DNA from: Spartobacteria bacterium
Lineage (GTDB): Bacteria > Verrucomicrobiota > Verrucomicrobiia > Chthoniobacterales > UBA6821
Length of the DNA: 37,421 nt
Reading direction: 5' to 3'
Assembly: GCA_947482345.1 (NCBI GenBank)
Contig: CANKJN010000010.1
Location: 1-37,421, forward strand
Shown: positions 7,045-33,578 of the stretch, one piece after another
Layout of the letters: each line of letters opens with the position of its first letter
Position numbering within the stretch: position 1 is the first letter of the stretch
Made by a program: the position numbers and the translations under genes
Notes under the pieces: model-generated
Database searches by the model: none
What the model was told of the DNA's origin: nothing
What the model saw: only the letters and a program-made list of their open reading frames with translations

Positions 7045-7368
7045 GAAGAGAAGGATGAAACCTGAGGCTTGAAACCTGAAGCTTTAATTCACAGGGATGA
7101 AAGGGATTAAGGGGGATTGAAAGAATGGCATGGCAGAAGTAGCTGCCAGGAAAAACTTCGGTACGGCTGGCCTTGGTCCCACTCTTGCAAGTGAGCTTGC
7201 AGAGATGATCCCAGAGGCAACCGGCAGCAATCAAAACCACCGAGTAAGCTTCCGAAGAAATCCAGCTCTTGGTCAAATACCTGCCAAGTTCCCTTCTTTC
7301 CTGAGTTCCTGATAAAATTCTTTGAACATCCCGCCTCTAAAAAAGAGCGAGGAGCAAGGAATCCTCAA
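7045..7368. other. Gene-free stretch upstream of the SirB1-like gene
   Basis: This holds heptamer-like sequence (AAACCTGA/GGCTTG, 7064-7084) and a repeat arm at 7091-7155 that is related to the one at 14895-14990. A hairpin (CTCTTGCAAG...CTTGCAGAG, 7181-7203) is also present. No convincing gene was seen; any promoter for the SirB1-like gene should be here. Confidence 0.5.
7089..7155. repeat. Solo arm related to the inverted repeat at 14895-15036
   Basis: ACAGGGATGAAAGGGATTAAGG at 7091 and the following GATTGAAAGAATGGCATGGCAG resemble AAAGGGGATTGTAAGAAAGGCATGGCAG at 14945. The partner arm (CCCTTAATCCC... orientation) was not found nearby, so this looks like half of an inverted-repeat element. 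Confidence 0.5.
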
Positions 7369-7642
7369 GGAAGCGCTGATTAAATCGCATAGAGGCCGTT
7401 GCGGGAAGAATGGGCCGCGGGCAAGGCGGCTTGGCGCGAGCATCCCCGCAGCGGGCTGTAAGCGCCAAGCCAACACAGCCCCCGGCCTGTTATCTCCGCA
7501 ACCCGGAGGGCTGAAGCCATTTGTCGATTTTTGTGGCGTTGCTCGCTTGGGCGAGACCGCTGCGGGTATCGCCCAGCACTCGCGCCTTCAAAAATCAGCA
7601 AATGCTCTTCAGTGGCCTTCATGGGATTTAATCAGGGGTTCC
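7369..7642. mobile_element. 274-bp MITE-like structured element, copy 1
   Basis: The element starts GGAAGCGCTGATTAAATC and ends GATTTAATCAGGGGTTCC; the ends are an imperfect inverted repeat of about 30 bp (GGAA.CGCTGATTAAATC..CAT..AGGCCG). It differs from the copy at 33204-33477 by only 7 substitutions in 274 bp with no gaps. It is flanked by TCAA (left) and TTAA (right), close to the YTAR targets preferred by IS5-group elements. Inside it are nested stems: GGCTTGGCGC/GCGCCAAGCC around 7421-7467, CTCCG/CGGAG near 7494-7507, and GATTTTTG (7526-7533) with CAAAAATC (7589-7596). It is too short for a transposase, so it would need one in trans. Confidence 0.72.
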
Positions 7643-7831
7643 TTAAGCCGCCTCGACATCGACGGCCGTGATCTCACCGCCCTCGGTGGTGATCCTGACC
7701 GTGGCCGGACGGCAGCAGACAGCGCAGTCCTCGATCATCTCGACCACCCCCTCCACGGCCGTCTCCACCTGGATGGCGTAATCCTCCCCGCACTGCGGAC
7801 ACTGGATCAGGATCTCCTCAAGCCAGTCCAT
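7643..7831 (-). CDS. Small CPXCG-motif cysteine-rich protein (62 aa)
   Basis: The protein has a CPQCG pair near the N terminus (residues 10-14) and a CAVCC pair near the middle, giving a four-Cys zinc-ribbon-like pattern, with the acidic segment QVETAVEGVVEMIEDCAVCCRP typical of the CPXCG (PF14255) family of about 60 aa. Function is unknown; metal binding is likely. I chose the ATG at 7831 (MDWLEEILIQCPQC), which gives the family's usual length; a TTG at 7873 would add residues encoded by repeat-like DNA. The TAA stop is part of the TTAA that borders the MITE-like element, so the insertion abuts or created the stop. Confidence 0.78.
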   Translation of the reverse strand: MDWLEEILIQCPQCGEDYAIQVETAVEGVVEMIEDCAVCCRPATVRITTEGGEITAVDVEAA

Positions 7832-7869
7832 GAAGAAGGAAGTATGAATTATGAGGGATGAAGAATGAA

Positions 7870-7950
7870 CCAAGCCCGTGGGATCGGGCGCGGTAGACTA
7901 CCGAAGGTAGCCCCGTTAGGGGCGGCACCGCTTGCTGGGAGGCAAGTGCC
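7870..7950. repeat. Four-hairpin structured repeat, unit 1
   Basis: Four consecutive hairpins can be drawn: GCCCG/CGGGC (7874-7889), CTACC-GAA-GGTAG (7898-7910), CCCC-GTTA-GGGG (7911-7922) and GGCA..CTTGC..GCAAG.TGCC (7924-7950). The unit ends with GTCAAACCTGA. The next unit keeps each stem with different bases, so the fold and not the sequence appears to be conserved. Confidence 0.7.
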
Positions 7951-7953
7951 GTC

Positions 7954-7974
7954 AAACCTGAAACCTGAAACCTG
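7954..7974. repeat. Heptamer array (AAACCTG)x3
   Basis: Three perfect tandem copies of AAACCTG join the two four-hairpin units. A decayed version (AAACCTGAGACGTGAAACC) follows unit 2 at 8074-8092. Confidence 0.85.
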
Positions 7975-7978
7975 AACC

Positions 7979-8060
7979 AAGCCGCTGGGAAGCGGCGCGG
8001 TAGACTACGACGCAGTCGTAGCCCCAACGGGGCGGCACGGCTTTGCGGGAGCAAAGTGCC
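7979..8060. repeat. Four-hairpin structured repeat, unit 2
   Basis: Same architecture as unit 1: GCCGCT-GGGA-AGCGGC (7981-7996), CTACGAC-GCA-GTCGTAG (8005-8021), CCCC-AAC-GGGG (8022-8032) and GGCA...CTTTGC-GGGA-GCAAAG-TGCC (8034-8060). Stems 1, 2 and 4 differ from unit 1 on both sides in a compensating way. Loops are mostly GGGA or GNA on the plus strand, while both neighbouring genes are on the minus strand. Confidence 0.72.
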
Positions 8061-8094
8061 GTCAAACCTGAGACGTGAAACCCACAACAGGATC

Positions 8095-8538
8095 CTATCC
8101 CTCGACTTCGATGCGCTTGGCGTCGTTCCAGAGATCCTCGAGTCCGTAGAGGCCACGCTTCTCGGTATGGAAGATGTGAACGATCACACTTCCGTAATCG
8201 ATGATGACCCATTGGCTCGCGGGGAATCCATCCTCGGCGGTCGGACACTGGCCGGTGGCCTCGCGGACCTTCTCGCGGATCGATCCGGCGATCGCCTTGA
8301 GTTGGGGTTCGGAGGTTCCCGAGGCGATCACGAAGAAATCGGTGAAGCTTGAGATCCCACGCATGTCGAGGATCACGACATCCTCGGCTTTCTTATCGAG
8401 GGCACCCTCCGCGCAGAGACGGGCAAACGACTCCTCGGGATCGATCGCGACAGCCAGTGCCTTCTTGACGGGCTTGGCCTTAGCAGAGGTGGCTTTGGAG
8501 GCGGCTTTGGATGCGGAGGCGGGCTTAGAGGTGGCCAT
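8095..8538 (-). CDS. rsfS: Ribosomal silencing factor RsfS with a Lys/Ala-rich N-terminal tail
   Basis: RsfS binds ribosomal protein uL14 on the large subunit and blocks subunit joining when nutrients are short. The domain starts near residue 35 and carries the family signature KKAEDVVILDMRGISSFTDFFVIASG, the GTSEPQLKAIAGSIREKV helix and the C-terminal WVIIDYGSVIVHIFHTEKRGLYGLEDLW block. A tail of about 30 residues made of Ala, Lys and Ser (ATSKPASASKAASKATSAK) precedes it and is not part of the usual family. The gene overlaps the 3' end of nadD by 14 nt; nadD-rsfS is a widely conserved pair. Confidence 0.94.
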   Translation of the reverse strand: MATSKPASASKAASKATSAKAKPVKKALAVAIDPEESFARLCAEGALDKKAEDVVILDMRGISSFTDFFVIASGTSEPQLKAIAGSIREKVREATGQCPTAEDGFPASQWVIIDYGSVIVHIFHTEKRGLYGLEDLWNDAKRIEVEG

Positions 8539-33150: not shown

Positions 33151-33578
33151 AAGGCGTCCACTACAAACGGAAGGAGGAAATCTGTAAAGAGGGAACCTCT
33201 TAAGGAAGCGCTGATTAAATCGCATAGAGGCCGTTGCGGGAAGAATTGGCTGCGGGCAAGGCGGCTTGGCGCGAGCATCCCCGCAGTGGGCTGTAAGCGC
33301 CAAGCCAACACAGCCCCCGGCCTGTTATCTCCGCAACCCGGAGGGCTGAAGCCATTTGTCGATTTTTGTGGCGTTGCTCGCTTGGGCGAGACCACTGCGG
33401 GTATCGCCCAGCACTCGCGCCTTCAAAAATCAGCAAATGCTCTTCAGCGGCCTTCATGGGATTTAATCAGCGATTCCCTAAGGAGGAACCTACCTCTTTT
33501 ATGCCTCTTCACTGGGGACAGGTTGCTTGACCTCCGGCGACTCCTCCCGTCACAATCACTCCTTCCAAAACCAATACC
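33151..33578. other. Divergent gap between secG and accB
   Basis: The 428-bp stretch is mostly the second copy of the 274-bp element. The remaining 53 bp next to secG and 101 bp next to accB must hold both promoters, or the element itself contributes one; no clear promoter or ribosome-binding site was seen. Confidence 0.5.
33204..33477. mobile_element. 274-bp MITE-like structured element, copy 2
   Basis: Same length and orientation as copy 1 (7369-7642) with 7 substitutions. The ends GGAAGCGCTGATTAAATC and GATTTAATCAGCGATTCC form an 18-bp inverted repeat with one mismatch. It is flanked by TTAA (33200-33203) and CTAA (33478-33481), fitting a 4-bp YTAR target. It sits between the divergent secG and accB genes. 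The low divergence from copy 1 suggests recent spread or gene conversion. Confidence 0.72.

Follow-up and report, generated by a model that had tools for sequence, protein, structure and literature searches.

Covarying four-hairpin repeats with precise junctions in a Spartobacteria genome resemble REP elements and IS200/IS605 ends

The small dispersed repeats of cyanobacteria (Elhai 2008) are reportedly tiny single hairpins of 21-27 bp inserted in short tandem repeats. Several further systems are relevant here. In IS608, the right cleavage site is TCAA, the right guide is GAAT, and the element inserts 3' of a TTAC that is retained (PMC5934647). A guide tetranucleotide sits at the hairpin foot of REP structures, and atypical high-copy structures with the foot CnGA, ~600 of them in Solibacter, flank class 3 TnpA-Y1 genes (PMC6006769). 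The CGTC REPs lack a dedicated transposase, have stems of 8-9 bp and mostly form head-to-head dimers, and GTAG REPs abound in O. terrae, a member of the Verrucomicrobia (PMC3733652). Furthermore, heptamer arrays occur in other bacteria (PMC4679880). How repeats such as the CGTC REPs move in the absence of an identified enzyme is a standing puzzle. In this study, a structured repeat family with precise insertion was found to be real, and its members are REP-like elements in a new form; no description of them was seen among the titles and abstract openings listed by literature searches. With a probability of roughly 0.6, the units are non-autonomous miniature elements, ~86-90 bp long, whose mobile form is probably a folded single strand of DNA, much as in REP elements and the ends of IS200/IS605 transposons.

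The window, which is the whole analysed stretch of 37,421 nucleotides (contig CANKJN010000010.1, assembly GCA_947482345.1), contains two units with the following parts and neighbours:

7870-7955, + strand: unit 1, CCAAGC...GTCAA; covariance model 95.4 bits, E 4.4e-20
7874-7889 (H1), 7894-7897 (TAGA), 7898-7910 (H2), 7911-7922 (H3), 7923-7951 (H4), 7952-7955 (terminal TCAA), + strand: parts of unit 1
7977-8065, + strand: unit 2; covariance model 110.5 bits, E 9.0e-24
7981-7996 (H1), 8001-8004 (TAGA), 8005-8021 (H2), 8022-8032 (H3), 8033-8061 (H4), 8062-8065 (terminal TCAA), + strand: parts of unit 2
7830-7869: degenerate 14-bp (2 x 7) array ending TGAA, the 5' flank of unit 1 (tandem repeat finder and sequence)
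7954-7976: AAACCTG heptamers (x3.3) separating unit 1 from unit 2; the called range overlaps the final two bases of unit 1 (tandem repeat finder)
8066-8082: rest of the heptamer array, the 3' flank of unit 2 (sequence)
8095-8538, - strand: neighbour gene, rsfS-like, with a match in 12 further genomes of this genus
7643-7831, - strand: neighbour gene for a cysteine-rich protein of 62 aa

The product of the gene at 8095-8538 resembles RsfS, a ribosome silencing factor, and the 62-aa protein is presumably of the CPxCG type. Both units were found on the + strand as a direct, same-orientation pair with the layout CC-AA-H1-GC-GG-[TAC]AGA-H2-H3-H4-TCAA, and each folds with the stem order that an earlier note had given for a tandem pair of four-hairpin units. 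The loops that the note had described as favoured are also present, with GGGA capping H1 and H4 and GAA or GCA capping stem 2. The compensatory stem changes that it had listed are all real, but two of the three are partly changes of length and not clean substitutions (from unit 1 to unit 2, CTACC/GGTAG becomes CTACGAC/GTCGTAG and CTTGC/GCAAG becomes CTTTGC/GCAAAG). Further tandem arrays of 7 bp (or 14 bp) that are devoid of units lie at positions 7056, 9184, 16932, 16990, 22632 and 23726 of the window and are of the TTCAGCC, CTTTTCA and CCTTCAG types.

The own genome (2.36 Mb) held at least 144 matches at E<=0.001 to a covariance model trained on 41 of its copies (150 of 2015 candidates scored), so that the collection of copies proposed in the earlier note yielded a large family and not an isolated pair. 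At least 62 matches to the unit were also obtained with BLAST (40 of 138 candidates scored). All per-genome model counts are lower bounds, with up to 150 candidates scored per genome and 19 in the order-wide survey. At E<=1e-10, units were present in 15 of the 16 genomes of the genus, with at least 111 in the own genome and from 1 to 40, again as lower bounds, in the other carriers; the single genome that gave no match at this threshold was G013. Moreover, a pattern scan of named genomes returned 20 stretches, all from MAGs (18 titled Spartobacteria, one Chthoniobacterales and one 'Proteobacteria'), and the viral contigs scanned contained no match to the pattern. Spartobacteria, the title of most of these stretches, is one class within the Verrucomicrobiota.

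Folding of the + strand gave MFE z-scores of -2.15 for unit 1 and -2.42 for unit 2, and folding of the minus strand gave about equal values of -2.04 and -2.93; because both strands fold alike, folding energy was set aside as evidence. Covariation was assessed in 82 copies carried by other congeneric species, none of which had been used in model building. In this alignment, which was fitted to the model and carries a bias towards the structure while the stems are still plain in the raw rows, 94.0% of 2287 stem cells were paired, compared with 74.7% after shuffling and 35-49% when the partners were slid. Two-sided changes were present in 25 of the 29 pairs (386 two-sided cells versus 110 after shuffling), the covariation value was 0.445 versus 0.127, and not one of 500 shuffles attained any of these measures. 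Single stem pairs were represented by up to six standard pair types across the 82 copies. The relatives' copies thus showed the covariation that the earlier note had proposed to look for, and the free loss of pairing that it had named as the contrary outcome did not occur. In a second set, comprising 48 distinct rows from four other genera, 89.0% of the cells were paired, two-sided changes were found in 28 of the 29 pairs and none of 500 shuffles attained the observed values. Approximately one third of these rows are near-identical copies from the sister-genus genome G021, one is a truncated duplicate of another row, and the alignment is poor in one helix (76%). With respect to a shuffling of modules from stem to stem, no linkage was seen among the 29 rows parsed out of 106, which are too few. 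Conservation of the fold, which the note had attributed to selection, is well supported. However, since the window units are lineage-specific insertions, as described below, this selection probably acts on source copies during movement and not at each locus.

The note had suggested that the unit may be either a plus-strand RNA or a folded single-stranded DNA like the REP elements. The GNRA-type loops and the strong covariation would suit a structured RNA, either a regulatory element or a small RNA, that had multiplied as a repeat and been retained because of the fold of the RNA, and the well-kept pairs showed a modest excess of G-T over A-C (28 versus 17 in the 82 copies and a further 44 versus 22; together 72 versus 39, binomial p 0.002). 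In all 82 copies, however, 35 G-T (wobble) cells were counted against 24 A-C cells, whereas 31 tRNAs of the own genome, in which ARAGORN may favour canonical pairs, had 39 G-U and 0 A-C in 668 pairs, so that G-U is rarer and A-C is commoner in the units than in these tRNAs. Furthermore, no Rfam family reached the gathering score in the window (two weak nearby matches were chance-like), no constant position relative to genes was found in crude gene calls, and the corresponding place in relatives is empty. The gene at the 3' side pointed towards the unit in 78 of 115 cases, and between co-directional genes 18 units lay on the gene strand and 32 on the opposite strand; these counts were not relied on because the gene calls are crude, with 93 of the 188 units overlapping an ORF of at least 100 aa. 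A structured RNA is accordingly a quite improbable identity for the units, and of the two suggestions it is the comparison with REP elements that is well supported. For a mobile element of folded DNA, most mismatches would have accumulated neutrally after the insertion of initially well-paired copies.

The gap between the rsfS-like gene and the CPxCG-type gene is 266 bp here, measured from the end of the aligned rsfS, versus 24-173 bp in relatives. None of the 10 relatives holding both genes (of the 12 with an rsfS match) has a unit in this gap, and a model search of all 12 rsfS loci found no unit, the best score being 10.6 bits (E 0.36). The units of the window are lineage-specific insertions. 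Downstream of rsfS in genome G009 (L174), a stretch resembling an insertion-sequence transposase was seen by eye.

The junctions respect the phase of the heptamer arrays. For 148 of the 188 copies (those with complete ends, 40 bases on each side and an element ending CAA), closing the flanks over the unit restored a lag-7 identity of 3.36/7, compared with 1.28-2.21 at shifts of 1-6 bases; an identity of at least 6/7 was reached by 20 copies versus at most 2 at shifted junctions, and among periods 4-12 only 7 stood out. After removal of duplicate loci, 141 copies remained, in which the observed value was 3.39 versus 2.37+-0.11 with permuted flanks for the own copies and 3.45 versus 2.53+-0.12 for those of relatives, and 0 of 5000 permutations attained the observed phase in either set. 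Heptamer arrays were judged to be present on at least one side in 81 of 141 copies. A target duplication of 7 bp was considered and rejected, as the array-free copies (n=38) averaged 2.1/7, with 34 of the 38 below 5/7 and four at 5 or above.

The window also contains, at ~7430-7640 and ~33265-33475, a longer interspersed repeat (a few hundred bases) that units of two subfamilies have entered elsewhere. Its two copies in the window are empty at the site of entry:

7579-7604, + strand: empty site, CTCGCGCCTTCAA adjoining AAATCAGCAAATG, in the longer repeat; the same site elsewhere is filled by a subfamily unit
33414-33439, + strand: second empty site of the same kind

This repeat was unit-free at three places (both window sites and L068) and carried the subfamily unit at 13, where the junction reads CCTTCAA-unit-AAATCAGC, in the general form TTCAA-unit-AAATC; the 13 filled sites may stem from one insertion. 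In addition, 6 of the 148 units have the 3' end of another unit as their 5' flank, in direct orientation.

The bases at these junctions are restricted. The 5' flank ended in GAA in 97, CAA in 19 and GAG in 13 of the 148 copies. Among 183 of the 188 copies, the unit ended in TCAA in 147 and in TTCA(A) in 19, and in the 148-copy set this tally is partly by construction because elements ending CAA were chosen. The 3' end changed together with the internal NAGA motif: in 180 of the 188 copies, the combinations were xxGA/TCAA (145), AGAA/TTCAA (18, most of which represent one composite repeat) and AGC/GCAA (3), the exceptions being AGC/TCAA (2), xxGA/TTCAA (1) and single irregular rows (11). NAGA started with A, T or C in 183 copies, and this starting base also covaried with the base just 5' of the unit, since C was found in 11 of 13 copies with a G flank and in 2 of 162 with an A flank; for both the end and the flank covariation the independent changes are few, and several of the G/C flank rows share a lineage or a locus. 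Pairing with the flank is not required, because with an A flank the first base was A in 92 copies and T in 66, so that A with A was as common as A with T. The base that precedes the unit could itself belong to the unit, as its first base. The heptamers next to 153 copies bear on this point: G stood at the flank position for C-type units in 6 of 7 heptamers on the right and 3 of 6 on the left, for T-types in 8 of 22 and 4 of 19, and for A-types in 13 of 24 and 6 of 27. These counts hint that the flanking G may belong to the target, the right-side contrast with A-types being weak and several of the C-type cases being related.

Taken as a moving single-stranded DNA, the unit would be recognised by its fold, in which hairpin 1 precedes a group of hairpins 2-4 that a short GA:TC pairing closes. 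The 3' end would be cut after TCAA, positioned through pairing with the internal NAGA, and the unit would insert just 3' of [G/C]A[A/G] without target duplication, a mode of insertion by which units would keep the phase of heptamer arrays and could insert behind one another. We infer from these features a single-stranded intermediate, an enzyme of the HUH type and a guide role for NAGA. The covariation of NAGA with TCAA and with the flank resembles the pairing between guide and cleavage site in IS200/IS605 single-stranded DNA transposons. As in IS608, a 3' TCAA is combined with an internal GA able to pair with it, and insertion occurs 3' of a short motif kept at the left without target duplication, the motif of the units being a loose one. 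In contrast, the target of the units is [G/C]A[A/G] and not TTAC, their four hairpins abut the cuts whereas IS200/IS605 elements have single subterminal hairpins, and no tnpA was found with unit ends. The orientation of the units showed no bias relative to local GC skew (0.012+-0.009 and 0.007+-0.011), a weak proxy for the replication strand; a mechanism of this kind might give a bias of the lagging-strand type, and its absence counts against the reading as a single-stranded mobile element.

With the Pfam Y1_Tnp profile, two RAYT-like genes that are 38% identical to each other were found in the own genome, as the earlier note had proposed to look for, but no unit lies near them and 13 unit-bearing genomes are without a Y1 match. 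The units might be extended REPs that are moved in trans by these RAYT-like Y1 proteins, which scored 56.4 and 63.0 of the 80 bits needed for REP_Tyr_transpos, below threshold. Consistent with this idea, copy numbers at E<=1e-10 are highest in the two genomes with a Y1 match (at least 111 in the own genome and at least 40 in G004, the next having at least 34). This is a weak hint; the own count is favoured by a model built on own copies. GTAG is also present in a part of the copies, namely those with TAGA as NAGA. On the other hand, the regions of ~3.3 kb fetched around each of the three Y1 genes (the own two and that of G004) contained no unit, the best score being 6.3 bits, and a Y1 match was missing in 14 of the 16 genomes of the genus, of which 13 carry units. 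The G004 protein is a different one and was found in 1 of 38 genomes, G004 alone, and was rejected as a genus-wide mover; its gene (L085:1393-2658, - strand) encodes 421 aa with a partial Y1_Tnp domain. A true REP/RAYT system is therefore unlikely. Like REPs and REPINs, the units are short palindromic repeats at high copy number with a tetranucleotide at a hairpin foot; unlike them, they consist of four hairpins plus a closing helix, end in TCAA and, in the window pair and the abutting units, lie in direct tandem, besides differing in the relation to RAYT genes just described. They were not assigned to the REP or the IS200/IS605 elements because the gene association that defines those groups was searched for in these genomes and not found. 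The GTAG REPs of O. terrae, also from the Verrucomicrobia, were compared by description, and the likeness to class 3 TnpA-Y1 structures is one of motif, some units having CAGA where those have the foot CnGA.

Genes other than Y1 were also considered. No transposase-like gene was present beside units among the 40 most recurrent frames (mostly in flanks of 0.5-1.5 kb), and no autonomous relative combining tnpA with the same ends was seen in the draft genomes with their short flanks. Long composite repeats and contig-end copies were rejected as candidates for an autonomous element, since their widely shared frames read as translations of the repeats themselves. The movement could instead depend on an enzyme of another kind, or on host replication and repair at hairpins and tandem repeats, for example when templates are switched within heptamer arrays, in which case no dedicated transposase would be involved. 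The missing gene and the entry of units into short tandem repeats favour this possibility, and the small dispersed repeats of cyanobacteria reportedly behave likewise. As a precedent for hairpins within heptamer arrays they come closest, being reportedly inserted in phase into short tandem repeats, whereas the single hairpins of 21-27 bp attributed to them differ from four hairpins in ~87 bp. The CGTC REPs are likewise without a dedicated transposase, and many units end in CGTCAA; in contrast, the stems of the CGTC REPs are short (8-9 bp) and mostly arranged in head-to-head dimers (PMC3733652). However, the conserved ends and the covariation of end and flank suggest a defined recognition step, and the longer repeat, which lacks heptamers at the junction, was also entered exactly at TTCAA. 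This explanation is a minority possibility. Spread of a retrotransposed RNA by a reverse transcriptase would agree with the compact, RNA-like fold, but RVT_1 was found in 1 of the 16 genomes of the genus (G001) and not in the own genome (drafts, the own genome being 93% complete), and this route is very improbable. An element that moves as single-stranded DNA, probably by means of an HUH-type enzyme, is the preferred reading. A single genome offers more than 100 copies whose junctions can be read, together with its own empty sites and with covariations that indicate the choice of end and target, so that both the mover and the rule of target choice can be tested directly.

In the order-wide survey, at least 28 of 213 genomes matched at E<=1e-5, comprising 15 within the genus and 13 outside it, the latter giving 1-3 weak matches apiece. 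Eleven of these 13 were inspected (families f1, f7 and f10). Their elements keep the layout with different stems, for example ACAACCAAGC...GCGCGGTAGA...GGCCCGCAGGGC...GGGAGCGAACGAGTCAA in L236, so that related elements are present in other families of the order and the units belong to a superfamily, beyond one single repeat. An order-wide superfamily might name its own target: NAGA would pair with the 3' end and with the preceding target base, a change of T or A to C would redirect the unit from ...A to ...G targets, and the mover would be neither Y1/RAYT nor a reverse transcriptase. This extension is speculative and rather unlikely as a whole. If the flank pairing is real, it would represent a natural DNA-guided choice of target in a minimal element.

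Several subgroups were observed in addition. The sister-genus genome G021 (L243-L257) has 16 model matches, many of which lie inside a larger repeat whose flanks are conserved. Elements of another related family, also with four hairpins, start with AATAC and end with GCAA or TCAA (L158:1604, L162:1158, L053:239 and 329, L140:597 and possibly L034:145). Finally, a subfamily of near-identical copies (L065:12, L066:5, L067:1945, L068:1933 and L069:3213), four of the five close to contig ends, perhaps represents the most recent spread, and it adjoins the further small hairpins CTGCGAAGCAG, TCCGAAGGA and CCGTCGGGAGACGG.
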